64,000 bases of DNA from contig NC_021237.1 in NCBI RefSeq assembly GCF_000397205.1, forward strand, positions 6,803,981 through 6,867,980, given 5' to 3'. How positions within the stretch are numbered: position 1 is the stretch's first letter; every line of letters starts with the position of its first letter. The position numbers were made by a program, and so were the translations under genes. The DNA is from Pseudomonas protegens CHA0 (lineage in GTDB: Bacteria > Pseudomonadota > Gammaproteobacteria > Pseudomonadales > Pseudomonadaceae). A model generated the notes under the pieces. It had not been told where the DNA came from. It ran no database searches and worked only from the letters and a program-made list of their open reading frames with translations. Shown in pieces: positions 3,735 through 26,834 of the stretch.

Positions 3735-3817
3735 GGCAAATACCGCGAAAAAAGGAGCGTCCCTACTCACAAGACAAGATGAACAACCGTCGAGGAAAAA
3801 TTTCCCATCGAACGTAT

Positions 3818-3832: not shown

Positions 3833-3863
3833 TGTGAAATCACTTCCCACGACGGACCTGTTC

Positions 3864-6288: not shown

Positions 6289-6299
6289 GGTGTTTCCCG

Positions 6300-7184
6300 A
6301 TGCGCGCTCTACTCGTGCTGTTCAGCCTGCTGTTGCCCTTGTCGCTGCCTACTGCCCAGGCGGCGGACAAGCTGGCGGTGGTCACCAGCTTCAGCATCCT
6401 CGCCGACATGACCCGCCAGGTCGGCGGTGAGCATGTGCACATCACCAACCTGGTGGGTGCCGACGAGGATGCCCACACCTACGAGCCGAGCCCGAATGAC
6501 GCCAAGGCCCTGCTCAAGGCCCGGCTGATCATCAAGAATGGCCTGGGTTTCGAACCCTGGCTGGACCGCCTGGTGGCCAGCACCGCCACCCAGGCCCAGG
6601 TCGTCACTGCCAGCCGCGGGGTTATTCCGCGCACCCTGGAGGAAGACGGCGAAAGCGTTCCCGACCCTCATGCCTGGCACAACCTGGCCAACAGCGAGCT
6701 CTATGTGAGCAACATCACCAAGGCGCTGATCGCTGCCGACCCGGCCCACCAGGCCGACTACCAGCGCAACAGCCAGGCCTACCTGAAACAGATCTATCGC
6801 CTGCTGGCCGAGGCCAAGGCCAAGCTCGGTTCCCTGCCCCCAGGCAACCGCAAGATCGTCACCTCCCACGACGCCTTCGGCTACCTGGGCCAGGCCTACG
6901 GTATCGACTTCATGGCGCCCCAGGGCCTGTCCACCGAGCGTGAACCTTCCGCCGCCGAAGTGGCTGCGCTGATTACCCAGATCCGCAACGCCAAGGTCAA
7001 GGCAGTGTTCATGGAGAACATCAAGGACGCCCGCCTGCTCAAGCAGATCGCCGACGAAAGCGGCGCCCATATCGGCGACACCCTGTACTCCGATGCGCTC
7101 TCGGCCAGCGGTCCGGCCAGTACCTTCACCGGCCTGTTCGAATACAACCTCGACACCCTGTACCAGGCCCTGAGCCAACCATGA
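6300..7184 (+). CDS. ABC metal importer, periplasmic binding protein (ZnuA-like, cluster A-I)
   Basis: 294 residues with a signal peptide (cleavage after T-A-Q-A near 21). Likely metal ligands fit the ZnuA/TroA family: H59 in D-A-H-T-Y-E, H124 and H127 in D-P-H-A-W-H, H190 in T-S-H-D and D265 in L-Y-S-D. It lacks the long His-rich loop of classical ZnuA, so it looks more like Mn/Zn-type cluster A-I proteins; zinc is favoured by the Zur operator and neighbours. Start at 6300 has a good ribosome-binding site (GAGGTG, 6286-6291); an ATG at 6285 lies inside it. Its stop overlaps hisI by four bases. Confidence 0.9.
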   Translation: MRALLVLFSLLLPLSLPTAQAADKLAVVTSFSILADMTRQVGGEHVHITNLVGADEDAHTYEPSPNDAKALLKARLIIKNGLGFEPWLDRLVASTATQAQVVTASRGVIPRTLEEDGESVPDPHAWHNLANSELYVSNITKALIAADPAHQADYQRNSQAYLKQIYRLLAEAKAKLGSLPPGNRKIVTSHDAFGYLGQAYGIDFMAPQGLSTEREPSAAEVAALITQIRNAKVKAVFMENIKDARLLKQIADESGAHIGDTLYSDALSASGPASTFTGLFEYNLDTLYQALSQP

Positions 7185-11993: not shown

Positions 11994-12124
11994 CGAATGA
12001 CTCCTAGACAATAGTGGCCGTTAGACTTCAGCCGGGGCACGGTGTTGCATGCAGAATAAAATAGCGACATTCACCGTGGAACATGGTCTGTTAGGCATTG
12101 AATCTTCAGGAGCAAGGCTGCCCC

Positions 12125-13564
12125 ATGGATTATTTTGGCCCGCACATCTTCGGCTATCTCATCGCACTGCTGCATTTTCTCGGGTTGATCGCCGCGATCC
12201 ACGCGGTACTCACCGTCAGGACCGCCCAGGGCGCCATCGCCTGGGCCCTGTCGCTGCTGTTCATGCCCTACCTGACCCTGATTCCCTACCTGGTGTTTGG
12301 TCGCAGTACCTTCGACGCCTACATCCAGGCCCGGCGTCAGGCCAATGTGGAAATGCACAAAGCCATCAATGAGCTGAACTGGCGCCCCTGGGTGGAAGAA
12401 GCCCTAACCGCCCGCGCCTCCAAGGCCTACGCCTCGCTGCGGGCCATGCCCAAGCTGGGGCGCATGCCGTGCCTGGCCAACAATCAGGTGCGCCTGCTGG
12501 TCAACGGCGACGCCACCTTCGAAGCGATCTTCAATGCCATCCGCCGCTCCCACAAGGCGGTGCTGATCCAGTTCTTCATCATCCACGACGATGAACTGGG
12601 CCGGCGCCTGCAACGCCTGCTGCTGGAAAAGGCCGCCGAGGGCGTGTCGATCCACCTGCTCTACGACCGCATCGGCAGCCACTCCCTGCCCGCCAGCTAC
12701 GTACAGACCCTGCGCGACGCCGGGGTCCAGGTGCACGCCTTCGCCACCCGCAGTGGCTGGCTCAACCGCTTCCAGGTGAACTTCCGCAATCACCGCAAGA
12801 TCGTGGTGGTGGACGGCATGCTGGGGTTCGTCGGCGGGCATAACGTCGGCGACGAATACCTGGGCAAGAAGCCGCCCCTGGCGCCCTGGCGTGATACCCA
12901 CGTGCAGGTCAGCGGACCGGTGGTGGCCTGCCTGCAGGAGTCCTTTGCCGAAGACTGGTTCTGGGCCGCCCGGGAACTGCCGCCGCTGATCCTCCCGGAC
13001 ACCTACCCGGACGACGGCGTGCTCTGCCAACTGCTGGCCAGCGGCCCGGCCGATGCCTACGAAACCTGCTCGCTGTTCTTTGTCGAGGCCATCCACGCGG
13101 CCACCGAGCGGGTGTGGATCACCAGCCCGTACTTCATTCCCGATGAGGCGGTGTTCGCTGCCCTGCGCCTGGCGGTGCTGCGGGGCGTGGATGTGCGCAT
13201 CCTGCTGCCCGCCCGCCCGGACCACCGCATCGTCTATGCCGCCTCCAGCCTGTACGCCTTTGAAGCAGTGCGCGCCGGGGTGCGAGTATTCCGCTATCAG
13301 CCAGGGTTCCTGCACCAGAAGGTGGTGCTGATCGACAACGAAATCAGCGCCATTGGCAGCGCCAACCTGGACAACCGTTCGTTCCGCCTGAATTTCGAAG
13401 TGATGCTGCTGACGGTGGACGACGACTTCGCCACCGAAGTGGAACACATGTTGGAAGCCGACTTCGCCAAGGCCCGGGAAATCGCCAAGGAAGAAAGCCG
13501 CCAGACCCACCGCCTGCAACAACTGGGCATGCGGGTCGCGCGGCTGATTTCTCCGATCCTTTAA
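12125..13564 (+). CDS. cls: Cardiolipin synthase
   Basis: 479 residues, the usual length for ClsA. Two N-terminal membrane helices (about 8-30 and 38-60) precede two phospholipase D HKD motifs: H223/K225/D230 and H397/K399/D404. It condenses two phosphatidylglycerols to cardiolipin and glycerol at the inner membrane. The ATG at 12125 is preferred over a TTG at 12098; AGGAG lies at 12108-12112. It converges with cfa, 9 bp apart, so two lipid-modifying enzymes are neighbours. Confidence 0.93.
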
Positions 13565-13573
13565 GGGCCAGGC

Positions 13574-14761
13574 TTATGGATGGTAGAGGTCATCCCGGGT
13601 CCAGGGCAGTTCATGGCTGCCATCGGCATGGGGCTTGACCGCCAGGATCTGGTGCAGGTTGATCCAGCCCTTGGCAAAGGCATAGGCGCAGCCCGCCAGG
13701 TACAGCCGCCAGATCCGTAGCGCCTGCTCCGGAACCTGCCTGGCGGCGGCTTCCAGATTGTCTTCCAGGCGTTCGCTCCAGTGATCCAGTGTCCGCGCGT
13801 AATGCATGCGCAGGCTCTCGACATCGACAATTTCCAGCCCCGCCTCGCTGATGAACGCCGAGATCATTGCCAGGTGCGGCAGCTCGCCATTGGGAAACAC
13901 ATAGCGCTCGATGAAGTCCCCGGCCCCGCGGCCCACCGGGCGGCCGTCGGTGTGCTTGGCGGTGATGCCGTGGTTCATCACCAACCCGCCCTCGCGCACG
14001 GCCCTGAACAGGGTCTGGCAGTACTCCGGCAAGTTGGCGTGGCCGACGTGCTCAAACATGCCGACACTGACCACCTTATCGAAGCGGCCATCCTGGGGCA
14101 GGTCGCGGTAATCCAGCAGTTGCAGGTCCACCAGGTCGTCCAGGCCTTCGGCGGTCACTCGCTCGCGGGCCAGGGCCAGCTGCTCCTTGCTCAAGGTGAT
14201 GCCGAACACCTTGGCGCCGAACTCACGCGCGGCGTAGCGGGCCAGCCCGCCCCAGCCGCACCCGACATCCAGCAGGTAGTCCCCCGGTTGCAGGCGCAGC
14301 TTGCGGCACAGGTGGCGGAATTTGGCTTGCTGGGCCTGTTCCAGAGACTCGCTTCCGGTCTCGAAATAGGCGCAGGAATAGGCCATGTCGCTGTCGAGCC
14401 ACAGTTGGTAGAAGGCGTTGGAAAGGTCGTAGTGATAGGAAATCGCGGCTGCGTCGGTCGCCTTGTCGTGCAGCGAGCGCACCGGCTGGTTGCCGTCGTC
14501 ATCGTCGAGCAAGGCCTGGCTCAGTTCGTCGCAGACCCGGATGACTTCGCTGATGGAACCTTCCAGTTCCAGTTTGCCCTCGACAAAGGCGCCCCCCAAG
14601 GCATCCAGGCTAGGGTGAGTCAGCTGCGCCACCAATTGCGGGTCCTTGACCACGATCGTGACGTTGGGATCCGGCCCCAGATTGAATTCATGGCCGTCCC
14701 AGAGCCGCAGGCGTAAAGGCAAATGCAGATTCTGTAAGGCCGGTGGAAGTTGCGCGAGCAT
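13574..14761 (-). CDS. cfa: Cyclopropane-fatty-acyl-phospholipid synthase family protein
   Basis: 395 residues. The SAM-binding motif D-V-G-C-G-W-G-G is at 165-172, followed by the family's G-I-T-L-S-K-E-Q and the E-H-V-G-H motif involved in bicarbonate/acyl binding. It methylenates unsaturated phospholipid acyl chains using S-adenosylmethionine, usually in stationary phase. Strong ribosome-binding site (AAGGGGGG) before the ATG. A perfect 16-bp palindrome at 14778-14793 lies just upstream and could be an operator. It is downstream of the bufferin genes on the same strand, with an 84-bp gap. Confidence 0.9.
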   Translation of the reverse strand: MLAQLPPALQNLHLPLRLRLWDGHEFNLGPDPNVTIVVKDPQLVAQLTHPSLDALGGAFVEGKLELEGSISEVIRVCDELSQALLDDDDGNQPVRSLHDKATDAAAISYHYDLSNAFYQLWLDSDMAYSCAYFETGSESLEQAQQAKFRHLCRKLRLQPGDYLLDVGCGWGGLARYAAREFGAKVFGITLSKEQLALARERVTAEGLDDLVDLQLLDYRDLPQDGRFDKVVSVGMFEHVGHANLPEYCQTLFRAVREGGLVMNHGITAKHTDGRPVGRGAGDFIERYVFPNGELPHLAMISAFISEAGLEIVDVESLRMHYARTLDHWSERLEDNLEAAARQVPEQALRIWRLYLAGCAYAFAKGWINLHQILAVKPHADGSHELPWTRDDLYHP

Positions 14762-14777
14762 GGAAAATCCCCCCTTG

Positions 14778-14793
14778 TTTCAGACGTCTGAAA
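14778..14793. promoter_or_regulatory. Perfect 16-bp palindrome upstream of cfa (candidate operator)
   Basis: TTTCAGACGTCTGAAA is its own reverse complement. It lies 17-32 bp before the cfa ATG, typical for a TetR- or GntR-type repressor site. The regulator is unknown. Confidence 0.6.
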
Positions 14794-14845
14794 TGAGGGT
14801 AGACCATCCTAGAAAATAGCAGGCTATCGATTTGATAGTGGTTTT

Positions 14846-15634
14846 CTATGATTCGCTGCGCATCACCAGGCCATCTTCGACCCACTGTTTCAACCAGGTA
14901 ACCGCCTGCAGCGGGGCCCCCTCGGCATAAGTGACGGCCAGCCCGGCGCAGAGTTCCGCAAAATTCCACCGTTGCTCGATCATGCCCCGCAGTGCTGTGG
15001 CCTCTTCGGCTGGCAGGCTGCGATAACGGCAGACCCGGTCCGCTCGCCAGACCAGGCACAGCTGCTGCTGATCGAGTAAAGCACTGCGGGGGAAATCCGC
15101 CTGCTCCTTGACCGCGCGCCATTGGGCCACGCTGTTGTAGCGGCAGTCGAGCCATTGCACACAGGGCGCCAGGCGCAGTTGCAGCTGCGGCCATTGCTCG
15201 ACATCCAGCCCGGCCATGGCCGCCACCGTCAGCACCTGGGCTTCGGCTGCGTCGAAGGCCAGGGTGAAGGCCCACTCCAGGCGCGCCAGTTCCGCCAGGG
15301 GGGCGCCCTGCTCCGGCACCAGATGGCCCTGGATGAATTCGGCAAAGCCCTGCCCCAGCCAGCGCAGGCTGAAATGCCGGGACGGGCACTGGCGAATGTA
15401 GGCCTGCGTCAGGGCCTGGAATTCTGCATCCCCCAACCAGTGCAGGATGGCCGGGAAGTCGCTGCCCATGACCTCCTGCAACCGGGCCATGTAGGCATTG
15501 TGATAGATCGCCAGGCCGGTCTCGACATCCAGGGTCGGGCCACCGATCAGGCTGTCTTGCAGGACGGCGCGGGCCTGGGCCTGTTCGCCCAACAGATAGG
15601 CTTCAAAAGCCAGTTGCCAGTCGTTCAGGCGCAT
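14846..15634 (-). CDS. bufC: DUF2063 protein, bufferin-maturation partner (BufC-like)
   Basis: 262 residues. The N-terminus has the HvfC/BufC (DUF2063) pattern: L-x3-F-x3-L at about 9-14, then I-Y-H-N-A-Y (about 43-48), R-L-x3-M-G-x-D-F-P (51-61). In bufferin systems this protein partners the multinuclear iron oxidase and presents the precursor peptide. It overlaps bufB by 10 bp and is third in bufA-bufB-bufC. Family call is firm; function follows from characterised bufferin systems. Confidence 0.85.
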   Translation of the reverse strand: MRLNDWQLAFEAYLLGEQAQARAVLQDSLIGGPTLDVETGLAIYHNAYMARLQEVMGSDFPAILHWLGDAEFQALTQAYIRQCPSRHFSLRWLGQGFAEFIQGHLVPEQGAPLAELARLEWAFTLAFDAAEAQVLTVAAMAGLDVEQWPQLQLRLAPCVQWLDCRYNSVAQWRAVKEQADFPRSALLDQQQLCLVWRADRVCRYRSLPAEEATALRGMIEQRWNFAELCAGLAVTYAEGAPLQAVTWLKQWVEDGLVMRSES

Positions 15635-16470
15635 TGCTGCCTCCCGGCCAGGGTCTGTTGCCCGAGATCTCGGGCCTTGTGCAGTTCGCTGAGCAGCTCT
15701 TCCAGGGGCGGAAAATGATCATCGCGCTCCAGCAGGGTGGCCACCGGCCCCAGGTGTTCAAGGGTGCGTTGATACAGCGCCCACACGGGATCGCAGACCG
15801 GGTGGTCGTGGGTGTCGATCACGTAGTCGCCATAATCCTGGTGCCCGGCCAGATGCAGTTGCCGCACGCGCTGCGCCGGCAGCGCCTGGATGAAGTGCCA
15901 GGGATCGAAACCATGGTTGCGCGAACTGACGTAGACGTTGTTCACATCCAGCAGCAGTTCGCAGCCGCTGAGCTGGCTCAAGGCGGCGAGAAATTCCCAC
16001 TCGCTGAACTCGTCGGCCGCCGCCCGCACATAACTGGAGACGTTCTCCAGCACCAGGGGGCGCTCCAGAATGTCCTGCACCTGACGCACTCGCCCTGCCA
16101 CGTAGTGCAGGCTCTCCTCGGTGTAGGGCAGCGGCAGCAGGTCGTGCAGTTGATGGGCGTTGCCCCGGCTCCAGCACAGGTGATCGGAGATCCACGCCGG
16201 GTTTGCCCGGCTGGCCAGTTGCCTGAGCCGCAGCAGGTAATCCCGGTCCAGGGCATGGGGGCCGCCGATGGACAGCGACACCCCGTGCATCACGATGGGG
16301 TAGCGCTCGGCGATCGCATCCAGGTAATACAGCGCCTTGCCACCCTGCACCATGAAGTTCTCGGACACCACTTCAAACCAGTCGACGTCCGGCGCCTCGT
16401 CGAGAATCTGCTGGTAGTAGGCACTGCGCAAACCCAGGCCATAGCCCAGGCTGGAAGAAAATTCAGACAT
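15625..16470 (-). CDS. bufB: DUF692 multinuclear non-heme iron-dependent oxidase (BufB/MNIO)
   Basis: 281 residues, TIM-barrel DUF692 family. Conserved metal-ligand segments are visible: E-V-V-S-E-N (Glu), M-H-G-V-S-L-S (His), S-D-H-L-C-W (Asp, His), L-V-L-E-N-V (Glu), D-V-N-N-V-Y (Asp, Asn), a late His in L-H-L-A-G-H and D-T-H-D-H. MNIOs oxidise cysteines of RiPP precursors, giving oxazolone/thioamide groups in methanobactins and 5-thiooxazoles in bufferins. The start at 16470 has AAGGAG eight bases upstream. It follows the DUF2282 precursor by 65 bp. Confidence 0.9.
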   Translation of the reverse strand: MSEFSSSLGYGLGLRSAYYQQILDEAPDVDWFEVVSENFMVQGGKALYYLDAIAERYPIVMHGVSLSIGGPHALDRDYLLRLRQLASRANPAWISDHLCWSRGNAHQLHDLLPLPYTEESLHYVAGRVRQVQDILERPLVLENVSSYVRAAADEFSEWEFLAALSQLSGCELLLDVNNVYVSSRNHGFDPWHFIQALPAQRVRQLHLAGHQDYGDYVIDTHDHPVCDPVWALYQRTLEHLGPVATLLERDDHFPPLEELLSELHKARDLGQQTLAGRQQCA

Positions 16471-16535
16471 CGCCAACTCCTTGCCAAGTGGCCGCAGTGG
16501 TTGCCAACCCCACTGCGGCAGCACTCGAACGCCGC

Positions 16536-16787
16536 TTACTCGCCGACTTTGCCGCCTGCTTTGTCACACGCGGCCTGGGTCATGGCCTTGAAGCCCTGGC
16601 CTTTACAGGCGCCCATGCCCTTGCAGGCGTGGTCCTTGGTCTTGCAGTCGTTCTGCCCTTTGCAGGCGTTGACGCCGTAGCAGTGCACCTGGGCATCGGC
16701 AGCAGACGCTTGAGTCACGACACCGGCAAACAGAGTGGCGGCAGCAAAAGCCAGGGCAGCGCCGGCGGCGGTTTTCTTCATGTTCAT
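16536..16787 (-). CDS. bufA: DUF2282 bufferin precursor peptide (BufA-like RiPP)
   Basis: 83 residues: signal peptide 1-29 (cleavage after A-S-A), then a 54-residue mature region with six cysteines (H-C-Y-G-V, N-A-C-K-G, N-D-C-K, H-A-C-K-G, G-A-C-K-G-Q-G and A-A-C-D-K-A-G-G). The C-Y-G-V and C-K-G-x repeats are the DUF2282 signature. BufA proteins are exported peptides whose cysteines are modified by BufB/BufC and which bind copper in the periplasm. The core here has more C-K-G repeats than short bufferins, so it may carry more modified cysteines. Ribosome-binding site GAGGA is seven bases upstream. Confidence 0.88.
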   Translation of the reverse strand: MNMKKTAAGAALAFAAATLFAGVVTQASAADAQVHCYGVNACKGQNDCKTKDHACKGMGACKGQGFKAMTQAACDKAGGKVGE

Positions 16788-16860
16788 TTTTGTTTCCTCA
16801 ATAGTCGCAGGGGATCGGCGGGTGCTTGTGCAATCCCGTCATAGCACTAGAGAGAGGAAG

Positions 16861-16884
16861 CATCCCGGCGTTACAGCCGGGATG
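16861..16884 (-). terminator. Stem-loop between the P-type ATPase operon and bufA
   Basis: CATCCCGGC / GCCGGGATG form a 9-bp stem with a 6-base loop. Read on the minus strand it lies after the ATPase stop, but there is no U-run 3' of it, so it may be a weak terminator or mRNA end. Confidence 0.45.
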
Positions 16885-16905
16885 AAAAAAACTGCGCGGC
16901 GGCGT

Positions 16906-18810
16906 CTACAGCTTCAACAGCGGCTCCTGGAAACGCAGCAGGCGACCGGCATTGCCCAGCACCAGCAAGGTGCTCAGGTTGTGCAGCACCGCAGCGATCA
17001 TCGCCCCCGCCGCCCCCAGCCAGCCGAACGCGGCAAAGGCGACGATGGCCAGGGTCCAGCCCAGGCCGATGATCACGTTGACCTGCAAGGTCCGCCGGCA
17101 TTCACGGCTCAGGCGCACGCAGGTGCCCAGGCGTCGCAGGTCGCTGCCGATCAGCACCACATCCGCCGAAGCCAGGGCGATGTCCGCACCACCGGCGCCC
17201 ATGGCCACCCCCACCACCCCGGCCTTGAGAGCCAGGGAGTCGTTGATGCCGTCGCCGACCACCATCGGCCGGAAGCCCTTGTCGATCTCCTCCAGTACCC
17301 GCTCAAGCTTGTCTTGCGGCAGGGCCTGGGCCTCGACGTCGGCGATTCCCACTTCCAGCGCCAGGCTGTCGGCCACACTCTGGCGGTCGCCGGTGAGCAG
17401 CAACTGCCGGCCCAACCCCAGTTCGCGCAACTCGCCCAGGGCATGCCGGGCCTCGGGTTTGACGCTGTCGGCCAGCAACAGCCAACCGAGAAATTCGCCA
17501 TCAAGCGCCAGGCCGGCAATCGGCCCGTCGTGCCCCGGCACCGGGCTGGTGTCGATACCCAACTGGCGGAACAGCTCCGGGCGGCCAAGGGCCGCTTCGC
17601 CCTCCTCGGTACGGGCCACCACCCCCAGGCCCTGGCGTTCATGAATGTCCCCCAGTGGCCATTGCTCTTCCTGGGGCACCAGCCCTGCCAGGGCCCGGCT
17701 GACCGGGTGGCTGCTGGCCGAGCCGAGGCTGGCGGCCAGAGTGAGCAGGCTTCGCTGGTCTTCCCGGGGGCTGTCGATGGCCTGCAAACGCAAGGTGCCG
17801 TACGTCAGGGTGCCGGTCTTGTCCACGACCAGGGAGGTCAGGTCCGCCAGCTCCTCGAGAAAGGCCGAACTACGAATCAGGATGCCGTGGCGCGCGGCCA
17901 CAGCGATCCCGGCGATGGCGGTGGCCGGCGCCGACAGCACCAACGCGCAGGGACAGGCCGCCACCAGCACCGCGAGCATGGCTTGGGCATCGTTGGTGAT
18001 GAACCAGGTCACCGCCGCCAACAGCAACACCAGCACCATGTAACTGCCGGCATAGCGCTCCAGCAAACGGGTGATGGGCGGCTTGGCGCGCTCGGCGCTT
18101 TGCATCAGGGCAATCACCTTGCCCAAGGTCGACTCCTCGCCGGTACGGGTGACCTGCACACGCAACAGCCCATCGAGATTGATTGCGCCGCCAAATATCT
18201 GCATGCCCTGAACCGCTTCCAGGGGGACCGATTCGCCAGTGATCGGCGCGGTATCCAGGCTCGCCTGGCCGGACACCACCAGACCATCGGCGGGCACCCG
18301 ATCGCCAGCGCGTACTTCCACCAGGTCGCCGGCCTTGAGGCTGGCGTTGTCCACTTCCACGACGCTGCCATCGGCCCGTACCTGTCGCGCCAGGCTGCGG
18401 GTCAAGCGGCCCAGGGCGTCGATGGCTTCCTGGGAGCCGATCACGCTGCGCTCTTCCAGTACGTGGCCGAAGATCATGATGATCGGCAACAGGGCCGCGG
18501 TCAGCAGGTCGCCAGTGGCCCAGGCGCCGAGCATCGCCAGGGCGATCAGTTGGTCGGTAATGCCGTGCAGGCTCGGGTAACGCAGGCTGAACCAGGCCGA
18601 GCGCATCACCGGCACCGCCACCAGCAGCGAGGCGACACCCAACAGCAACTGGCTGACGCCCACCTGCCCTGGGGCCAGCCAGCGCCAGACCAGGCCAAGG
18701 GCCAGAAGCCCCAGGGCGAGCATGGCCAGGGTCAACTGGCGGGCGGCGCTGCGTTGCTCGGCCGAGGTCAGCATGCTGGCGGGGGGCGCGGCATGGGTGG
18801 TGGCAGTCAT
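16906..18810 (-). CDS. P1B-type heavy-metal ATPase without an HMA domain
   Basis: 634 residues. P-type motifs: TGES (191-194), C-P-C in the membrane (286-288), D-K-T-G-T with the phosphorylated Asp (330-334), the heavy-metal H-P dipeptide (368-369) and GDGIND (519-524). The C-terminal helix H-N-L-S-x-N-A-G-R-L-L is typical of P1B-2-like (Zn/Cd/Pb) or broader P1B pumps. There is no N-terminal CxxC domain, only a short tail. It is the last gene of an operon with three SPFH proteins, overlapping the previous gene by 4 bp. Metal and direction of use are not certain. Confidence 0.9.
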   Translation of the reverse strand: MTATTHAAPPASMLTSAEQRSAARQLTLAMLALGLLALGLVWRWLAPGQVGVSQLLLGVASLLVAVPVMRSAWFSLRYPSLHGITDQLIALAMLGAWATGDLLTAALLPIIMIFGHVLEERSVIGSQEAIDALGRLTRSLARQVRADGSVVEVDNASLKAGDLVEVRAGDRVPADGLVVSGQASLDTAPITGESVPLEAVQGMQIFGGAINLDGLLRVQVTRTGEESTLGKVIALMQSAERAKPPITRLLERYAGSYMVLVLLLAAVTWFITNDAQAMLAVLVAACPCALVLSAPATAIAGIAVAARHGILIRSSAFLEELADLTSLVVDKTGTLTYGTLRLQAIDSPREDQRSLLTLAASLGSASSHPVSRALAGLVPQEEQWPLGDIHERQGLGVVARTEEGEAALGRPELFRQLGIDTSPVPGHDGPIAGLALDGEFLGWLLLADSVKPEARHALGELRELGLGRQLLLTGDRQSVADSLALEVGIADVEAQALPQDKLERVLEEIDKGFRPMVVGDGINDSLALKAGVVGVAMGAGGADIALASADVVLIGSDLRRLGTCVRLSRECRRTLQVNVIIGLGWTLAIVAFAAFGWLGAAGAMIAAVLHNLSTLLVLGNAGRLLRFQEPLLKL

Positions 18811-19865
18811 TGTTCGGCTCCCTGAATGATCAGGCGTGAATCGTCTTGGGGATTGACCGTGGTCACCGAACCGGCTTGCCCGAGAATCTTCGGCAGGCGT
18901 TCACGGTAGATACGCAGCAGCATTTCCGGGTCGGTGCCGTTGCGCTGCGCCTGGGCCAGGCTCTGCACCGTGGCAGTCTGGGCCCGGGCCAGGGCCAGCC
19001 GTTCGCTGGCCTGGGCATGGGCCACTTGCAGGCTGCGGTCCGCCTGCTGGTTGGCGCCCTGGGTCAGCTTTTCCGCTTCGGTGCGGGCGTTGGCGACCGC
19101 CTTGTCGGCTTGCTGGCTGGCAGTGAGCACCGCGTTGAAGGCGCTGACCGCCGGGCCCGGCAGGCTCGATTGCACATCCACCCGCGTTGCCTCGACGCCA
19201 ATGCCCTGGCCGCTGGTGGCCAACTGCGCCAGGCGCTGGTTGATGCTTTGCAGCAGATCGCCCCGCAGCCGCTCACGACGCTCGGCGGCCTGGTTGTCGC
19301 TACCGATCAGTTCCGGGCGCGCCACCAGGATGGTGTCCAGGTCACGGGCGGCGGTCAGGGCCACGGCGCTGCGGGTCACCAACCGATCCAGGGCCGGCAG
19401 CACGTGGTCAGCCTGGAGCACATAGGCGTAGGGATCGCTGACCTTGTAGAACACCCGCACGTCCAGCTGTACCACACCGGCATCGCCAGTCAGCAGGTAA
19501 CCGGACCCGGCCAGGGTGTCGTTCAAAGGCGTGGCCAGGGTGGCAACCCGGTCCCCTTCCAGAGCCGCCTCGGAACGCAGCAAACCCTCCACCCGCCGCT
19601 CCAGTACCCGGTCGGCGGCGGGCAGCAGCACCACCTGCTCAAAAGGCTGGGGCCAGGCCAAGAGCAATCCGGCGCTCTGCACCCTTTCCAATTTGCCAAA
19701 GTGCAAGACCATGGCCCGGTTCTGCGGGTCTATCTGCCGCACATTGGAGAAGGCCCAGGCAAGCGCCGCCAGTACTGTCACCCCGTACAAGGCGATGAAT
19801 GCCAGACGCCCGGCCTGGATCCACGGGCTGCTCAACTCATTTGTTCCACGTGGAACCTTATTCAT
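18807..19865 (-). CDS. SPFH/band-7 membrane protein (HflK-like)
   Basis: 352 residues: an N-terminal membrane helix (about 18-42), an SPFH domain (about 50-230), then an Ala/Gln/Glu-rich coiled coil (about 230-320) ending near R-E-R-L-P-K. This is the HflK/stomatin plan. Such proteins form large membrane cages that organise microdomains or control proteases such as FtsH. It overlaps both neighbours by 4 bp. It is not the housekeeping hflK, which normally lies beside hfq-hflX. A parS-like site overlaps its first codons. Confidence 0.85.
   Translation of the reverse strand: MNKVPRGTNELSSPWIQAGRLAFIALYGVTVLAALAWAFSNVRQIDPQNRAMVLHFGKLERVQSAGLLLAWPQPFEQVVLLPAADRVLERRVEGLLRSEAALEGDRVATLATPLNDTLAGSGYLLTGDAGVVQLDVRVFYKVSDPYAYVLQADHVLPALDRLVTRSAVALTAARDLDTILVARPELIGSDNQAAERRERLRGDLLQSINQRLAQLATSGQGIGVEATRVDVQSSLPGPAVSAFNAVLTASQQADKAVANARTEAEKLTQGANQQADRSLQVAHAQASERLALARAQTATVQSLAQAQRNGTDPEMLLRIYRERLPKILGQAGSVTTVNPQDDSRLIIQGAEQ
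19842..19857. other. parS-like ParB-binding palindrome
   Basis: TGTTCCACGTGGAACC matches the pseudomonad parS consensus at 15 of 16 positions, with the same 14-bp palindromic core as the site at 4264. It lies in the first codons of the HflK-like gene. Confidence 0.7.
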
Positions 19866-20905
19866 GGTTGCGAACCAGCGGCTTTGCCCGGCAGGTTTGG
19901 CGGGCCATCCACCAGCACCCGGAAAGGCGCCGCGTCGGTGCGCAGGATCAACTTGGTGCCCGGAGTCACCACAGTACCCAGGGTGTCCAGTGAGCGCAGC
20001 AAGTTGTACAGCTGCGGGGAACTGGCGTAGGCGCGGCCATAAATCTGCGCCGCTTCAACCCGGGATTGCGCCTCGATATCCGCGGCCTTCACTGTGGCAT
20101 CGGCCTGGACGATCCGCGCATCGCGTTCGGCGCCAGAGCGGATTTGCGCCGCTTCGCGCTTGCCGATGGCGGTACGTTCCGTGGCGATGGTTTCACGCTC
20201 GGCGCGCATGCGGTCCACGGTGGCGGTAAGGGTCACCGAGGGCAGGGTCAGACGCTCCACCCCCACCTGCACCACTCGCACTCCATAAGTGGAAAGCAAT
20301 TGCTGTTCGATCTGCTGGCGCAGTTGCGCTTCGAAGTCGGCAATGCGCACCTGGCTGGCATCGGTGTTCACCAGGTTGGCCAGATCGAAGCTGCTGGCGG
20401 TGGTTTCCAGGGCCGAACCGACAAAGGTGCGGATCTGCCGCGCCGCTTCGTCCGGCTGGTTCTGCACCGCCCGCATGAAACGCTGCACATTGTCCGCGTC
20501 GCCCTGGACCCGCCAGGCCACGTAGGCCTGGACGATAATCCGCAAACCGTCGCGGGTGCCCACATCCTGCAAGCCACTGGACGTGGTGCGCAGGCGCAGG
20601 TCCACCGGGATCGCCGCTTCAAAGGGTGCCGGCCAGCGCCAGTTCAGGCCCGGCTCCAGCAGCACCCGCGCCGGGTTGCCGAAGCGGGTGATTACCGTGG
20701 CTTCGCCGGAGCGCACTTGCACCAGGCTCGCCGCGGCCACGGCAAACAGCACCAGTAGCACGGCCCAGCCCATGCGCCGCCAGGGGAAAGGCCCGGCCTC
20801 GGCCGGCGCCCCATGATGATGATGGTGGTGATGCCCGTGATGGTGGTGATGGCCGTGCCCGTGGTCGTGGCCGGCGTGATCGTGGGAATGGGAGGACTGG
20901 CTCAA
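19862..20905 (-). CDS. SPFH/band-7 membrane protein with a His-rich N-terminus (HflC-like)
   Basis: 347 residues. Residues 1-32 are extraordinarily His-rich (runs of five and seven His with Asp, Gly and Ser), a likely cytoplasmic metal-binding tail. A membrane helix follows (about 44-64), then an SPFH domain (about 70-270) and a short Ala/Glu-rich coiled coil. Second SPFH gene of the operon; overlaps both neighbours by 4 bp. The His tail beside a P1B ATPase gene suggests metal handling rather than protease control (inference). Confidence 0.85.
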   Translation of the reverse strand: MSQSSHSHDHAGHDHGHGHHHHHGHHHHHHHGAPAEAGPFPWRRMGWAVLLVLFAVAAASLVQVRSGEATVITRFGNPARVLLEPGLNWRWPAPFEAAIPVDLRLRTTSSGLQDVGTRDGLRIIVQAYVAWRVQGDADNVQRFMRAVQNQPDEAARQIRTFVGSALETTASSFDLANLVNTDASQVRIADFEAQLRQQIEQQLLSTYGVRVVQVGVERLTLPSVTLTATVDRMRAERETIATERTAIGKREAAQIRSGAERDARIVQADATVKAADIEAQSRVEAAQIYGRAYASSPQLYNLLRSLDTLGTVVTPGTKLILRTDAAPFRVLVDGPPNLPGKAAGSQP

Positions 20906-22851
20906 TGGACGGCTCCTGGCTGAGCGGCTTTACGCGGCGCCGAAGGGTCGGCCGGCAAGGTGAACGTACGCAGGTCGAGGGTCGGCGCGCTGTCGCCCCC
21001 CAGACGATGATCAAGAATCAGCAGCTTGGCCTGGCTCAGGCCCTGGCTCAGCTGGCTCAGGTACTGCTCGAGAACGAAGGCCTGCCCCGCACTGGCGAAG
21101 GCTTTCTGTTCGGCGGCAAAGCGCAGGTCGGCAGCCTGGGCCGCCGCCTGCACTTCGCGCGCATCGGCCTGGGCCTGGTCGCGGGCCACGCTGGCTTGCA
21201 ACTGCGCCTGGTTGGTCTGCTCGGCAGCCGCTCCACGTTCCCGGGAAATCAGCGCCTGGGCGCCAATCTGCGCCGCTTGCACACCGTGGTAGGCATTGGC
21301 CGCGCCAGCCGGTGGATGGATGGCCTCGACTACCGTGGCAAGAATCTCTACCCCGCTGTCGAGCCGGTCCAGATCGCCCTGCACGGCCCTGCCGATGTCA
21401 TCGGCCAGCCCGGTGCGGTCCTGCCCCAGCAGGCCATCGAGGGTGCGCGAGGCAAAGTCGTGCACCAGCACGCGGCTGGCGGTGCTGCGGATCAGCGTCG
21501 GCACATCGCTGCTGTTGTAAGTGGCGGCCAGCGCCGCAGCGTCGCCCAGGCCGATGCGGTAGACGAAGCGCACATCCATGTTGACGATCTGAAAGCTCTG
21601 TTGCTGGGCATTGCCGCTGGCGATCACCTGGGATTTGTCATTCACGTGGCTGGCATCCCACAGGCGGTTGGCAATGGCGGGGGCCGGGCCTTCGGCGGGG
21701 GCCGCTTGAAACGGCTGCGAGCTTTCGCCCACGCTGGTGGCCAGTTCATGGACCACGCCGTTTTCCACCGTCAGTACCCGCCCCAGGGGCCAGGGCAGGC
21801 CCAGATGCAGGCCCGGGCCAAAGACCTGTACCGGCTTGCCGAAACGCTCGTAAATACCGCGATTTTGCATGGAAAATTCATGAACGCCGGTCAACAGCCA
21901 ACCTACCGCCAACACCACCAGCAATACCGGTACAAAGGCCCGGCGCATATAGGCGAAGGCCCAGATCTGCCGCAGATCGATGCCAAAACGGTTGTGCAAT
22001 TCATGCTGCAGGCTGAGCAGGGGTTGGGGCGGCCAACGCAGCATGTCGGCAACAAAACTGTGGGCCAGAAGCCGTGGCTCCAGCTGTTCGCGCTGTGGGC
22101 TGAACAGCGACAACACCGCGCGCAACAACAACTCGCCGGCCACCAATGCCGGCAGCAGCCCCGTCAGCACCGCCAGCCGTACTGGCCACAAGGCCGTGTC
22201 GCTGCTGAACAACAGGCACAGGGCGCTCACCAGCAAACAGATAATCGCCACCCGCAGCAGCTGCGCCAGGGCGCCGGCTTCCGGCCATTCCCCTGGGTGC
22301 TCCTGGGCCAGTTGGCGTTCCAGCACCAGCAGGGCAAACGCCAGCAGCAGAGCCAGCACCGCCACCACGCTGGCACCCAGGCCCAGGGCGGTGGCGGGCA
22401 ACGAAAGGTTGAACACCTGCACCACGCTATACAGGATCAGCAGCGACCAGCCACCAAGCCACAGGGTAGGCGCGCCGATCTGCTGCAACAGGCGCCGCCC
22501 GCGCAGGGTCAGGGCAGCTGCCAGCCGGCCCTGTGGCTGCCGATCCTCCACGGCCTCGGGCGTGACAACCGGCGCCGGAGTGATCACCTCTTCGCGCCAG
22601 CGGCTGACCCAGCACGCCGATTGCAGCCCGGCCACCACCACCAGCAAGGCACACGAAAGGTTCACCAGCAGTGCCGGCCAGATGGTCAGCGCCGCAAACA
22701 GATCGACAAACACCGCCGCCACCAGCCCCAGCACCGCCAGGCCCAGCAAAGCGGCGCCCCAGCGCTGCAAACGCGCCGCATGGGACGCCGCCTGCTGAAA
22801 CCGTGGCAAGGCAGCCACCTCGCCACCTTGCGTCTCAAGATCGACTTGCAT
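20902..22851 (-). CDS. Large SPFH/band-7 protein with multi-helix N-terminal domain
   Basis: 649 residues. The first ~380 contain about six or seven membrane helices in pairs; the rest is an SPFH domain (about 385-570) and a Gln/Ala-rich coiled coil (about 580-640). Its SPFH start (R-G-I-Y-E-R-F-G-K-P) resembles HflK. The ATG at 22851 follows a GGGGTGG stretch; longer in-frame readings lack a ribosome-binding site. First gene of a four-gene operon (SPFH, SPFH, SPFH, P1B ATPase), all joined by 4-base overlaps. Confidence 0.83.
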   Translation of the reverse strand: MQVDLETQGGEVAALPRFQQAASHAARLQRWGAALLGLAVLGLVAAVFVDLFAALTIWPALLVNLSCALLVVVAGLQSACWVSRWREEVITPAPVVTPEAVEDRQPQGRLAAALTLRGRRLLQQIGAPTLWLGGWSLLILYSVVQVFNLSLPATALGLGASVVAVLALLLAFALLVLERQLAQEHPGEWPEAGALAQLLRVAIICLLVSALCLLFSSDTALWPVRLAVLTGLLPALVAGELLLRAVLSLFSPQREQLEPRLLAHSFVADMLRWPPQPLLSLQHELHNRFGIDLRQIWAFAYMRRAFVPVLLVVLAVGWLLTGVHEFSMQNRGIYERFGKPVQVFGPGLHLGLPWPLGRVLTVENGVVHELATSVGESSQPFQAAPAEGPAPAIANRLWDASHVNDKSQVIASGNAQQQSFQIVNMDVRFVYRIGLGDAAALAATYNSSDVPTLIRSTASRVLVHDFASRTLDGLLGQDRTGLADDIGRAVQGDLDRLDSGVEILATVVEAIHPPAGAANAYHGVQAAQIGAQALISRERGAAAEQTNQAQLQASVARDQAQADAREVQAAAQAADLRFAAEQKAFASAGQAFVLEQYLSQLSQGLSQAKLLILDHRLGGDSAPTLDLRTFTLPADPSAPRKAAQPGAVH

Positions 22852-22916
22852 ACCACCCCGCCGCTCTGGTCCGGCCCTGTGGATAAACCCACGGGCCGAA
22901 GAAATTCGAAACAATT

Positions 22917-22931
22917 CGTTACTATATAACG
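22917..22931. promoter_or_regulatory. Degenerate Zur-like palindrome upstream of the SPFH/P-ATPase operon
   Basis: CGTTACTATATAACG has 5-bp inverted arms (CGTTA/TAACG). Its core GTTACTATATAAC matches the GTTATATTATAAC core of the site at 1932 at 10 of 13 positions. It lies about 66 bp before the first SPFH gene. Weak candidate. Confidence 0.35.
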
Positions 22932-23096
22932 AGCCGAGTGAAATTTTTGTCCCCCGCCATGCCTTTTCATCTATTGCGTACGTCGTAGACACAGAGACAG
23001 CTGTTTGCTCATGACAAAACTTCTGATGTCAGCCCCCTGGCATTTAAGGCAATAATCCAGCCCTGCTCACCGCGTGCGACAAGGAACCGTCCCATC

Positions 23097-23720
23097 ATGC
23101 TCTCGATTTACCAGCTCAAACCGCGCTTTCAGAACCTGCTGCGGCCGTTGGTGCAGCGCCTGTACGACAACGGCACCACGGCCAACCAGATCACTGTCCT
23201 GGCCGCCGTCATCTCGGTCCTGGTCGGCACCGTCATCGCCCTGTTCCCCGGCCATGCCTGGCTGTTCGCCCTGATTCCCCTGTGGATGATCCTGCGCATG
23301 GCGCTCAATGCCATCGACGGCATGCTGGCGCGGGAATTCGGCCAGCAATCGCGCCTGGGGGCCTACCTCAACGAACTCTGCGACGTGGTCGCCGACAGCG
23401 CCCTGATCCTGCCTTTCGCCCTGTTGCCCGGGGCCAGCCTGCTGCTGGTGCTGGCCGTGACCCTGCTGGCGCTGTTCAGTGAGTACGCCGGGGTGCTCGG
23501 GCCCATGGTCGGGGCCTCGCGGCGCTACGACGGGCCCATGGGCAAGAGCGACCGCGCCTTCATCCTCGGCGTGCTGGCCACCGGCATCGCCCTGGGCTGG
23601 CTCAGCGCCCTGTGGATAAACGGCGTGCTGGCACTGGTCGCCGCACTGCTGGTCTACACCCTGATCAATCGGGTCCGCCAGGGCCTCAAAGAAGTTCAGC
23701 ACAATGCTCCCTCTGCATAA
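23097..23720 (+). CDS. CDP-alcohol phosphatidyltransferase family protein (YnbA-like)
   Basis: 207 residues, about six membrane helices. The family motif DxxDGxxAR(x8)GxxxDxxxD is recognisable at 71-96, but the first Asp is Asn71 and the third is Asn92; D74, G75, A78, R79, G88 and D96 are kept, and D100 follows. These enzymes transfer an alcohol to a CDP-activated lipid. The substrate is unknown. The gene heads a cluster whose domain set and lengths match E. coli ynbABCD. AAGGAA precedes the start. Confidence 0.85.
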   Translation: MLSIYQLKPRFQNLLRPLVQRLYDNGTTANQITVLAAVISVLVGTVIALFPGHAWLFALIPLWMILRMALNAIDGMLAREFGQQSRLGAYLNELCDVVADSALILPFALLPGASLLLVLAVTLLALFSEYAGVLGPMVGASRRYDGPMGKSDRAFILGVLATGIALGWLSALWINGVLALVAALLVYTLINRVRQGLKEVQHNAPSA

Positions 23721-23730
23721 GGAAATGGCT

Positions 23731-25488
23731 ATGCGCGACGCTCAACACCAGACGTTCCGAACCCATGACGGTGTCGAACTGTTCTACCGCCACTGGCCAG
23801 CCACTGAAGTGGCCCCTGGCGAACCGCGGCAAGCGGTGATGCTGTTCCACCGCGGTCACGAACACTCCGGGCGCATTGCCCACCTGGTGGAAGAGCTGAA
23901 CCTGCCCCAGTTCGATTTCTTCGCCTGGGATGCCCGTGGCCATGGCCAGTCGCCGGGCGCCCGTGGCGACAGCCCGAGCTTCGCTACCAGCGTGCGCGAC
24001 GTGCAGACCTTCTGTGATCACCTGGGCAGCGCCCACGGGATCGCCGAGGAAAACATCGCCGTGGTGGCCCAGAGCGTGGGCGCGGTGATCGCGTCCACCT
24101 GGGTCCACGACTACGCGCCGCGCATCCGCTCCCTGGTGCTGGCCTCGCCGGCGTTCAAGGTCAAGCTGTACGTGCCCTTCGCCCGGCCCGGCCTGGCCCT
24201 GATGCGGCGCTTTCGTGGCAACTTCTTCGTCAACAGCTACGTCAAGGCGCGCTTCCTGAGCCACGACCCGGAGCGGGTCCGCAGCTATGACAGCGACCCG
24301 CTGATCACCAAGGCGATCTCGGTGAATGTACTGCTGGGCCTGTATGAAGCGGCAGACCGGGTGGTAGCCGACGCCCAGGCGATCCAGGTGCCGACCCAGT
24401 TGCTGATCTCCGGCTCCGACTTCGTGGTGCATCGCAAGCCCCAGGAGCAGTTCTTCGAGCGCCTGGGCAGCCTGCACAAGGAAAAGCACATCCTCCCGGG
24501 CTTCTTCCACGACACCCTGGGGGAAAAGAACCGGGCGCCGGCCATGGCCAGCATCCGTCGCTTCATCCTGCAGAATTTCGAGCGCCCGCTGAACCGCCCT
24601 GCCCTGCTGGACGCCGACCGCCTGGGCGTTACCTGCGCCGAGTCCGAAGCCCTGGCCGCGCCGCTGCCGCACAATTCCCTGCGCGACCTGTACTGGCGCG
24701 CCACCCGTGCCAGCATGCGCCTGGGCAGCCAGCTGTCGGCGGGGGTCAAGCTGGGCTTCGACACCGGTTTCGACTCCGGCAGCACCCTGGACTACGTCTA
24801 CCGCAACCGCCCCACCGGGCATTCCGCACTGGGCCGGATGATCGACCAGAACTACCTGAACTCCATCGGCTGGCGCGGCATCCGCCAGCGCAAGCTGCAT
24901 GTGGAAGAACTGCTGCGCCTGGCCATGGAAAAACTCCGTGAGCAAAACAGCGAAGTGCGCATCGTCGATATCGCCGCCGGCCACGGCCGCTACATCCTCG
25001 AAGCCCTGCAAGGGGTCAGCCCGCTGCCGGAGTCGATCCTGCTGCGCGACTACAGCGATATCAACGTGCGCGACGGCAGTGCGCTGATCCAGGAGAAAGG
25101 CCTGGGGGACATCGCCCGCTTCGTCAAAGGCAACGCCTTCGACCGCGAGGACCTCGCAGCCCTGGACCCGAAACCCACCCTGGCGGTGGTCTCCGGGCTC
25201 TATGAGCTGTTCGCCGACAACCAGATGGTCGGCGGCTCCCTGGCGGGCCTGGCCAGTGCCGTGGAGCCCGGCGGCTACCTGGTGTACACCGGCCAGCCGT
25301 GGCACCCGCAGCTGGAACTGATCGCCCGCGCCCTGACCAGCCACCGCGAAGGCCAGGCCTGGGTCATGCGCCGCCGCACCCAGGCGGAGATGGACCAACT
25401 GGTGGAGGCCGCCGGCTTTCGCAAGGTCACCATGCGTGTGGATGAATGGGGGATTTTCAGCGTATCCCTGGCGCAACGGGTGCAATGA
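23731..25488 (+). CDS. Fused alpha/beta hydrolase and SAM-dependent methyltransferase (YnbC-like)
   Basis: 585 residues, the length of E. coli YnbC. N-terminal alpha/beta hydrolase of the monoglyceride-lipase kind (about 10-290): oxyanion segment F-H-R-G-H, W-D-A-R-G-H-G, nucleophile elbow A-Q-S-V-G, candidate Asp in S-G-S-D and His in F-F-H-D. C-terminal class I methyltransferase (about 370-585) with D-I-A-A-G-H-G-R near 413. Together with lipid enzymes it probably acts on a lipid or its head group. Start at 23731 has AAGGAA six bases upstream; ATG 23725 lies too close to it. Confidence 0.88.
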   Translation: MRDAQHQTFRTHDGVELFYRHWPATEVAPGEPRQAVMLFHRGHEHSGRIAHLVEELNLPQFDFFAWDARGHGQSPGARGDSPSFATSVRDVQTFCDHLGSAHGIAEENIAVVAQSVGAVIASTWVHDYAPRIRSLVLASPAFKVKLYVPFARPGLALMRRFRGNFFVNSYVKARFLSHDPERVRSYDSDPLITKAISVNVLLGLYEAADRVVADAQAIQVPTQLLISGSDFVVHRKPQEQFFERLGSLHKEKHILPGFFHDTLGEKNRAPAMASIRRFILQNFERPLNRPALLDADRLGVTCAESEALAAPLPHNSLRDLYWRATRASMRLGSQLSAGVKLGFDTGFDSGSTLDYVYRNRPTGHSALGRMIDQNYLNSIGWRGIRQRKLHVEELLRLAMEKLREQNSEVRIVDIAAGHGRYILEALQGVSPLPESILLRDYSDINVRDGSALIQEKGLGDIARFVKGNAFDREDLAALDPKPTLAVVSGLYELFADNQMVGGSLAGLASAVEPGGYLVYTGQPWHPQLELIARALTSHREGQAWVMRRRTQAEMDQLVEAAGFRKVTMRVDEWGIFSVSLAQRVQ

Positions 25489-26834
25489 TGGCCGCAGGCG
25501 CCTTGCCGGCCCGGGAGCCGGGCCTGCTGAAACCCGCGGTGCTCTGGCTGCTGTTGCTGGCACCGCTGTTCTTCAGCACCTACGGCTTCGCCACCTGGGT
25601 CACCGCCCAGCGCGACGATGTCGGCAGCATGGTCTTCGACTGGGAACGGCACATGCCGTTCTGGGCCTGGACCATCGTGCCCTACTGGTCCATCGACCTG
25701 CTCTACGGCTTCTCCCTGTTGTTGCCGCGCAGCCGTGACGAGCTCAAGCGCCACGCCCTGCGCCTGCTCACCGCCCAGGTAATCGCGGTCAGTTGCTTCC
25801 TGATCTGGCCATTGAGCTTCACCTTCTCCCGGCCGGAACTGGACGGGGTTTTCGGCTGGCTGTTCGCGGTGCTGGCCGGCTTCGACAAGCCCTTCAACCA
25901 GGCGCCGTCGCTGCACATCGCCCTGCTGGTGGTGCTCTGGGTCTGCTACGCACGGCATACCCAGGGTTTCTGGCGCTGGCTGGTGCATGGCTGGTTCGCG
26001 CTGATCGGGGTCTCGGTGCTGAGCACTTATCAACACCACTTCATCGATGTACCCACAGGCGCCCTGGCCGGCTGGCTGTGTGTCTGGCTATGGCCGCTGG
26101 ACCGTCCCAGCCCATTGTTCAGTGCCCGTGCGACCCAGGACCCGAAGCGCCGCCAGCTGGCCCTGCGCTATGGCCTGGGTGCGGCGCTGTTCGCCGGGGC
26201 AGCCTTTGCCTGGGGCGGCGCCGCGCTGTGGCTGATCTGGCCCGGCGTGGCGCTGTTGCTGGTGGCCCTGAACTACGCCCTGCTGGGTGCCGAGGGTTTC
26301 CAGAAGCGCCAGGACGGCAGCCTCAGCCCCGCTGCACGCTGGTTGCTGGCGCCTTACCTGGCGGCGGCCTGGATCAACTCGCGGCTGTGGACAAAAAAAC
26401 ATCCACAGCCGGACCCGGTTGTGGATAACGTCTGGCTCGGGCGCCTGCCGACACCGGCCGAGCTCAAGGACAGCCCGTTCGACGCCGTGCTCGACCTGTG
26501 CGCCGAGCTGTCCCTGGACAGCCGCGGGCTGCGGGCCTACCAGAGCCTGCCGGTGCTGGACCTGTGTGCCCCCAGTGCCGAGCAGTGCCTGGCCGCCGCC
26601 CACGCCATCGAACGCCTGCGCCTGCAAGGGCCGCTGCTGGTGTGCTGCGCCCTGGGTTATTCGCGCAGCGCCACGGCGATTGCCGCCTGGCTGCTGCACA
26701 GCGGCCGGGCAGCCACGGTGGATGCCGCCATCGTGCAGATCCAGCGAGCCCGCCCGCAGATCGTCCTGCACCCCGCCCACCGCCAGGCGCTGCAAGCCCT
26801 GAGCAGCGCCGGGAGAACGGCCCATGTCCACTGA
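25485..26834 (+). CDS. PAP2-like phosphatase fused to a dual-specificity phosphatase (YnbD-like)
   Basis: 449 residues. An N-terminal membrane domain of about seven helices carries PAP2-like motifs (K-P-F-N-Q-A-P-S-L-H near 140-150 and S-T-Y-Q-H-H-F-I-D near 185-193). The C-terminal ~150 residues are a Cys-based phosphatase with C-A-L-G-Y-S-R (C-x5-R) near 390. This arrangement equals YnbD. It could remove phosphate from a phosphatidyl-alcohol phosphate, as PTPMT1 does for phosphatidylglycerophosphate (inference). Start overlaps the upstream stop (ATGATG). Confidence 0.88.
   Translation: MMAAGALPAREPGLLKPAVLWLLLLAPLFFSTYGFATWVTAQRDDVGSMVFDWERHMPFWAWTIVPYWSIDLLYGFSLLLPRSRDELKRHALRLLTAQVIAVSCFLIWPLSFTFSRPELDGVFGWLFAVLAGFDKPFNQAPSLHIALLVVLWVCYARHTQGFWRWLVHGWFALIGVSVLSTYQHHFIDVPTGALAGWLCVWLWPLDRPSPLFSARATQDPKRRQLALRYGLGAALFAGAAFAWGGAALWLIWPGVALLLVALNYALLGAEGFQKRQDGSLSPAARWLLAPYLAAAWINSRLWTKKHPQPDPVVDNVWLGRLPTPAELKDSPFDAVLDLCAELSLDSRGLRAYQSLPVLDLCAPSAEQCLAAAHAIERLRLQGPLLVCCALGYSRSATAIAAWLLHSGRAATVDAAIVQIQRARPQIVLHPAHRQALQALSSAGRTAHVH

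Follow-up and report, generated by a model that had tools for sequence, protein, structure and literature searches.

Why should three different SPFH proteins be encoded together with a P1B-type metal ATPase? This question was raised by a four-gene operon on the minus strand (22851-16906) of the window, namely the whole stretch of 64,000 nucleotides from Pseudomonas protegens CHA0 analyzed here. An earlier note on this DNA had supposed that the SPFH proteins and the pump build a platform for metal efflux or metal storage, an arrangement that it did not know as characterised. As described below, we consider it fairly probable that the four genes constitute the hmtA operon of Pseudomonas, a zinc-starvation unit repressed by Zur, in which the SPFH trio would hold the ATPase HmtA with a net supply of zinc, and perhaps copper, as the outcome. 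The operon most likely helps the cell to obtain scarce zinc rather than to expel or store metal. Both the operon and its regulation are already published, and the system is therefore of a known kind.

Gene layout of the operon

Pfam assigned three Band_7 (PF01145) genes and one P1B ATPase gene, arranged head to tail, to this region.

20902..22851, minus strand: SPFH-A, 649 amino acids; PF01145 at 73 bits; N-terminal membrane domain (approximately residues 18-254), conserved linker, another transmembrane (TM) helix, SPFH domain and long helix; counterpart of PA2439/PaFlo5
19862..20905, minus strand: SPFH-B, 347 amino acids, TTG start; His-rich N terminus, one TM helix, HflC-like SPFH domain; counterpart of PA2438/PaFlo6
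18807..19865, minus strand: SPFH-C, 352 amino acids; one TM helix, HflK-like SPFH domain; counterpart of PA2437/PaFlo7
16906..18810, minus strand: P1B-type ATPase, 634 amino acids; without HMA domain; CPC in TM6 and HNLST in TM8; counterpart of HmtA (PA2435)

The gene junctions were TTGA, ATGA and ATGA with a 4-base overlap at all three, and these overlaps were as the earlier note had described them. Its observations of a multi-helix domain on one of the band-7 proteins and of a pump devoid of an HMA domain were likewise borne out: several hydrophobic helices lie ahead of the SPFH domain in SPFH-A, and Pfam found no HMA domain in the ATPase. The tail of more than 20 His residues that it had reported turned out to be a His-rich segment on SPFH-B which is N-terminal, not a tail; 18 of the first 35 residues of the protein are His, and the segment lies ahead of the only TM helix, which has a basic WRRM flank. 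The longest open reading frame (ORF) of SPFH-A begins with a GTG at 22992, and the start adopted in the earlier note is an ATG at 22851 preceded by GGCGGGG; the latter is likelier to be correct, since a Zur-box-like palindrome falls within the extension from 22992. The promoter scan gave no sigma-70 match, and no tRNA was found at positions 12000-26000 of the window.

Zur box and zinc-starvation context

The palindrome ahead of the operon was located as follows.

22918..22930, minus strand: Zur-box-like palindrome, core GTTATATAGTAAC within TCGTTATATAGTAACGA, 66 base pairs ahead of the SPFH-A ATG

The pattern GTTAYNNNRTAAC stood upstream of SPFH-A in its exact form in all 81 Pseudomonas loci read (80 named loci and the window), and was found in 1 of 3000 background windows when the operon promoter was excluded; a first background count with that promoter included had given 106 of 5000. 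Of 22 more distant loci from genomes and plasmids, 14 had a box deviating at no more than one position (29 of 3000 in the background), and two loci of an Enterobacteriaceae-like genus, L144 and L145, carried the exact box. As for the genomic context, two of the four exact GTTATNNNATAAC places in the genome lie inside the window, at 1933 and 3819, among the genes of a zinc-starvation island (259-7184) comprising zigA, a dksA-family gene, an amiC-like amidase gene, folE2 and an aztABC-like transporter, the last of which scores under the curated cut-offs. Elsewhere in the genome, a Fur-family gene is likely to encode Zur, because it adjoins znuA-like and znuC-like genes (by eye).

The corresponding cluster of P. 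aeruginosa is treated in several papers. PMC4542158 presents PA2434-PA2439 as an hmtA-containing cluster, with PA2439 assigned to the HflK family, PA2438 to HflC, PA2437 to the HflC family and PA2435 as HmtA, and in a znuA mutant the increase for five listed genes of this cluster was between 5.6 and 14.4-fold. In an electrophoretic mobility shift assay (EMSA), the PA2439 promoter was completely shifted by purified Zur, with zinc only (PMC8531726). HmtA and the PA2437-2439 proteins were more abundant without zinc, most clearly PA2438 (p 0.011 in one method; PMC11761036), and PA2437-2439 were raised by N-acetylcysteine (NAC), which was found to act mainly as a zinc chelator (PMC9431628).

Judging from gene order, protein family and close relatives, SPFH-A, SPFH-C and the ATPase of the window would be the orthologues of PA2439, PA2437 and HmtA. 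A record named P. aeruginosa HflC (P0181) matched SPFH-B at 82% identity across 86% of the SPFH-B length and likewise has a His-rich N terminus. In seven loci of genus g280, which we take to be that of P. aeruginosa, the identity to the window was 55-61% for SPFH-A, 74-85% for SPFH-B, 62-69% for SPFH-C and 77-85% for the ATPase. P. protegens itself was reportedly studied under zinc limitation by Lim in 2013, and that study may list this operon.

Membership of the operon in the Zur response is thus well supported, and binding of Zur to this promoter is predicted from the conserved box. The box, together with the P. aeruginosa counterpart that is bound by Zur and raised on zinc depletion, indicated a zinc-starvation response, and the metal efflux or storage proposed in the earlier note was rejected in view of the Zur control. 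Its statement that the arrangement is not known as characterised calls for qualification: the cluster has been published and the trio deleted in P. aeruginosa PA14. We found no paper in the open-licence literature that links the SPFH trio to the function of HmtA.

Conservation and co-occurrence of the four genes

The conservation of the unit was surveyed in 103 loci, namely the best 80 of 186 relatives, 9 of 19 family matches, 3 of 11 phylum matches, all ten plasmid loci and the window. The four genes occurred in the same order in every one of them (80/80 named Pseudomonas loci, 9/9 others of the own family, 3/3 of other families, 10/10 on plasmids of Rhizobium, Burkholderia, Paraburkholderia and Klebsiella, and the window), and hence the arrangement is not due to chance. 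All 103 loci had been picked via an SPFH gene, so that what counts is the presence of the ATPase in each of them; the 80 named loci belong to one genus and are not independent, nor are the ten plasmid records ten independent cases, several of those from Rhizobium being near-copies.

In the phylum draw of 398 genomes, SPFH-B (E ≤1e-40) and the ATPase (E ≤1e-110) were found in the identical 11 genomes and in no others. SPFH-A was found in 19 of the 148 genomes of the family draw, and among the 369 genomes of the class draw the unit was found only in the own genome, with SPFH-A and with SPFH-B as the query; the scoring in the class and phylum draws covered no more than 3 or 5 candidates of each genome. 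The distance matrices of the four proteins from 17 loci were correlated at 0.89-0.96, and for all six pairs none of 999 permutations reached as high a value. Some alignment rows used in the ATPase and box survey, the SPFH-A profile and these matrices (e.g., SPFH-A of L084 and L130) overshoot the true stop. Taken together, the data supported the view that the SPFH trio and the ATPase form one travelling unit tied to metal handling.

Two individual loci may be recorded here. In L144 (7980-8963), from a Buttiauxella-like genome, SPFH-B is broken by an in-frame stop while the neighbouring genes are open. On the Paraburkholderia sprentiae plasmid (L157:1-5232), ABC transporter genes for metal and a copper chaperone of the PCu(A)C type precede the unit.

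Proposed working of the operon

According to the regulation printed for P. aeruginosa, and judging from the conserved box in the window, Zur with zinc would occupy the palindrome before SPFH-A and keep the operon off; when zinc falls, Zur would leave the palindrome and one mRNA would be made for SPFH-A, SPFH-B, SPFH-C and the P1B ATPase. The three SPFH proteins would probably combine into a hetero-oligomer, shaped as a ring or cage, at the periplasmic side of the inner membrane. By analogy with HflK/C, which holds FtsH, this cage would hold HmtA inside or beside it, HmtA taking the place of FtsH as the client.

The His-rich segment of SPFH-B is predicted by the positive-inside rule to be cytoplasmic, since it lies before the TM helix with the basic WRRM flank, and the SPFH domain would be periplasmic as in HflK/C. 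Relatives carry such segments in varied places. Members of genus g280 (e.g., L124) have a His-rich N terminus both on SPFH-B and on the ATPase; on the Klebsiella plasmid there are 6 His in the stretch read of the ATPase and 1 in SPFH-B, and the N terminus of SPFH-B contains 1 His in L158 and 11 in each of three Rhizobium loci (L160, L161 and L164). That the segment can reside on either protein, or on both, gives a hint of a common site of action for the two N termini. Given this topology and these relatives, the segment could take zinc from the pump or relay it, replacing the missing HMA domain. The net effect would be the delivery of zinc, perhaps also copper, to the cytosol in scarcity, provided that the import direction of HmtA is right. 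Import of zinc and copper by HmtA is reported by reviews citing Lewinson 2009, and this direction is disputed.

A number of points weigh against this reading. The contact between the SPFH proteins and the ATPase is inferred by analogy, the structural models were weak in the SPFH part (mean predicted local distance difference test, pLDDT, of 67.8 for SPFH-A and 59.4 for SPFH-B), and shared descent alone may explain the correlated distances. P1B ATPases are as a rule exporters, and a review that describes HmtA import calls for further proof of it. On the side of regulation, hmtA mRNA was low and did not drop upon zinc addition in one study, hmtA is absent from the consulted rows of the NAC table (PMC9431628), and the same review has Zur binding the promoter of every zinc-uptake gene but hmtA, an exception that conflicts with the EMSA on the PA2439 promoter. 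Deletion of the trio in PA14 (paFlo5-6-7; PA14_33070/33080/33110, equated with PA2439/2438/2437 by a table in PMC9431628) gave no strong phenotype, and the consulted parts of that report contain no zinc-limitation test of the deletion (PMC13086221). The box was weak or absent in 8 of the 22 distant loci, and the loose pattern GTTATNNNATAAC with one mismatch was not enriched genome-wide, with 27 places as compared with 46 for the reversed control; 3 of the 27 fall inside the window, and at the 4 examined of the 24 outside it (L008, L009, L016 and L022) no zinc gene was present among the ORFs scanned.

The reading would join two literatures that have so far stood apart, in that the zinc papers, in the parts consulted, list PA2437-2439 as FtsH modulators of the Zur regulon and the SPFH paper deletes them without reference to hmtA. 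It points to zinc starvation as the relevant condition and gives an orphan SPFH set a candidate partner. The question whether P1B ATPases can import, and by what means, could be approached through this operon as well, since its pump is accompanied by the SPFH trio in every locus read and bears the CPC plus HNx(S/G)T signature.

The SPFH trio and the HflK/HflC family

The kinship of the trio suggests another explanation, in which the SPFH proteins are zinc-starvation modulators of FtsH that replace or supplement HflK/HflC in order to restrain or retarget this zinc protease, and the ATPase is merely co-regulated. In a maximum-likelihood tree of 58 rows, SPFH-A, SPFH-B and SPFH-C each formed one group, SPFH-B falling with HflC (98/92) and SPFH-A and SPFH-C with HflK (99/99); the grouping of A with C was unsupported (85/41), and the program warned of long branches. 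The best Foldseek matches were HflK for SPFH-A and HflC for SPFH-B. Many database records name members of the trio HflK or HflC, and two zinc papers (PMC11761036 and PMC9431628) speak of FtsH modulators in their passages on these genes, the latter also giving dksA2 and folE2 as other zinc-free substitutes in the Zur regulon.

The curated NCBIfam models nevertheless placed all three proteins below the cut-offs: 87.7 for SPFH-C and 58.4 for SPFH-A with hflK (TIGR01933, cut-off 159.4), and 100.0 for SPFH-B with hflC (TIGR01932, cut-off 134.4). The genome has its own hflKC pair at 0.66 Mb scoring 378.6 and 281.4, above these cut-offs, and HflK was encoded elsewhere in 8 of 8 other carriers tested. 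The trio as canonical HflK/HflC was rejected on the grounds of these scores and this separate pair. Moreover, SPFH-A contains a large additional membrane domain and SPFH-B a stretch rich in His, both of which are lacking in the genome's own HflK and HflC; the ATPase accompanies the trio in all 103 loci and in the same 11 of 398 genomes; and the trio is sparse although FtsH is described in PMC13086221 as present in nearly all cellular organisms. We regard a role as FtsH modulators as unlikely, albeit as the most serious competitor of the HmtA-holding assembly.

The membrane domain of SPFH-A

Residues 18-254 of SPFH-A are predicted to adopt a six-helix fold like that of the cation diffusion facilitators (CDF/ZnT), joined to the SPFH domain, in a model of mean pLDDT 67.8. 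SPFH-A could accordingly be imagined as a degenerate CDF/ZnT membrane domain plus SPFH, and the trio as a zinc-import compartment having a periplasmic cage, a membrane floor with CDF-like domains and HmtA, and a His-rich cytoplasmic exit catching the imported zinc. This extension is speculative and in our estimate rather improbable. PF01545 matched none of 45 SPFH-A members (E up to 1), and HHalign against CDF gave probabilities of 0.04-1.2%. The zinc ligands of CDF proteins are conserved Asp and His residues in the second and fifth helix, and no conserved Asp or His was found in either of these helices of the SPFH-A membrane domain, whose conserved charged residues are R86, E178, R179, E191, E240 and R244. 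Homology to CDF by sequence was therefore rejected on the negative Pfam and HHalign results, and the likeness was retained as a fold lead only. If it were true, an SPFH cage specialised for a transporter, not a protease, would be at hand, which could explain a P1B ATPase as an importer.

The P1B ATPase and the direction of transport

The ATPase displayed the motifs CPC, DKTGT, TGES, HP and GDGIND, and scored 517.5 bits with TIGR01525 (cut-off 346.25) and 490.9 bits with TIGR01512 (cut-off 313.5). TM6 read ACPC(A/V) in 103 of 103 operon ATPases, and TM8 read HN-x-ST in 101 and HNVGT in the other 2. The TM8 His aligned with the His of HEGST in 7QBZ, with Asp in ZntA (4UMV) and with Met in CopA (3RFU), and the TM7 Lys of 4UMV aligned with Thr in the operon ATPase. 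P1B-2 exporters such as ZntA possess CPC in TM6, Lys in TM7 and Asp in TM8; the operon ATPase shares the CPC but has Thr for Lys and His for Asp. P1B-4 enzymes (CoaT/CzcP) are characterized by SPC in TM6 and HEGxT in TM8; here CPC and HNLST were found, with the TM8 His, Ser and Thr aligning with those of 7QBZ. Three other P1B ATPases of the genome (L147, L148 and L150) have CopA-like or ZntA-like ends, and the ZntA-like L148 has both Lys and Asp.

These features bear on the possibility of metal export or of zinc supply to the periplasm, in which the pump would move zinc outward and the SPFH cage with the His-rich segment would store it in the periplasm or at the membrane. Such a direction would agree with the prevalence of exporters among P1B ATPases stated in the reviews, with the NCBIfam placement in a cadmium-family subfamily, and with the names of efflux or translocating ATPases borne by the nearest solved structures. 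It is at odds with the Zur control and the induction upon zinc depletion, with the presence of the separate ZntA-like ATPase having the Lys and Asp of that group, and with the higher cell zinc and copper that the review passage reports upon HmtA overproduction. Outward transport was thus judged distinctly improbable.

Neighbouring genes

14846-16787, minus strand: bufferin cluster (BufA2, BufB and a BufC-like protein), directly downstream of the ATPase
23097-25488, plus strand: divergent genes for a CDP-alcohol phosphatidyltransferase and a fused hydrolase-methyltransferase

BufA2 was identified by NF050166 (95.5 bits, cut-off 60) and BufB, the MNIO maturase, by NF050167 (377.6 bits, cut-off 310), and the third protein is a BufC-like DUF2063 protein. 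The bufferin genes sit between the ATPase and cfa in 32 of the 80 named loci, and on this count they were rejected as part of the unit. A copper unit, in which the ATPase, the SPFH trio and bufABC (16787-14846) cooperate in copper handling, is very improbable: BufA2, BufB and the BufC-like gene do come next on the same strand and a review passage has HmtA carrying copper too, but the four-gene order is unaffected by their presence in only those 32 loci, a stem-loop lies between the ATPase and the bufferin genes (by eye; not listed by the promoter scan), and the Zur box argues for zinc. The divergent gene pair was seen in 16 of the 80 named loci, within the DNA examined.

Comparison with known systems

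Among P1B ATPases, ZntA (4UMV), CopA (3RFU) and 7QBZ have the core domains and CPC or SPC in common with the operon ATPase. The best match in the PDB was 7QBZ, which agrees with the operon ATPase in the His of TM8 but has SPC in TM6. The membrane domain of SPFH-A was 14% identical to the CDF/ZnT transporters YiiP, ZnT1, ZnT3 and ZnT7.

The hmtA cluster of P. aeruginosa, PA2439-PA2438-PA2437-(PA2436)-PA2435-PA2434, has the same gene families in the same order as the window, with a Zur site before PA2439. In genus g280, 5 of 7 loci have a gap of more than 600 base pairs between SPFH-C and the ATPase, whereas the genes of the window overlap. In L124 of this genus, the gap (10178-10630) contains a gene for a protein of 150 amino acids with a signal-peptide-like start, which is probably PA2436 and is absent from the window. 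PaFlo5-PaFlo6-PaFlo7 of PA14 are the same trio as PA2439/2438/2437. The 2026 paper on P. aeruginosa SPFH proteins that describes them (PMC13086221) leaves hmtA or an ATPase gene unmentioned in the consulted main text, where zinc appears once, for FtsH. Its passages on origin, based on neighbour joining, rule out a duplication, whereas our tree grouped the trio with HflK/HflC; they also describe the SPFH trio as uncommon and possibly acquired by transfer, in agreement with the plasmid loci observed here.

A close known assembly is the HflK/HflC-FtsH complex (7VHP, 7VHQ, 7WI3 and 9CZ2), whose structures were the best sequence and fold matches of the trio and which likewise combine an SPFH domain and a long helix with an N-terminal membrane anchor. 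The trio differs in that the partner gene encodes a P1B ATPase, not FtsH, in that there are three paralogs instead of two, and in the extra membrane domain of SPFH-A and the His-rich segment of SPFH-B. If the HmtA-holding assembly proposed here is correct, it would add a new form to the HflK/C kind, one dedicated to a P1B ATPase.

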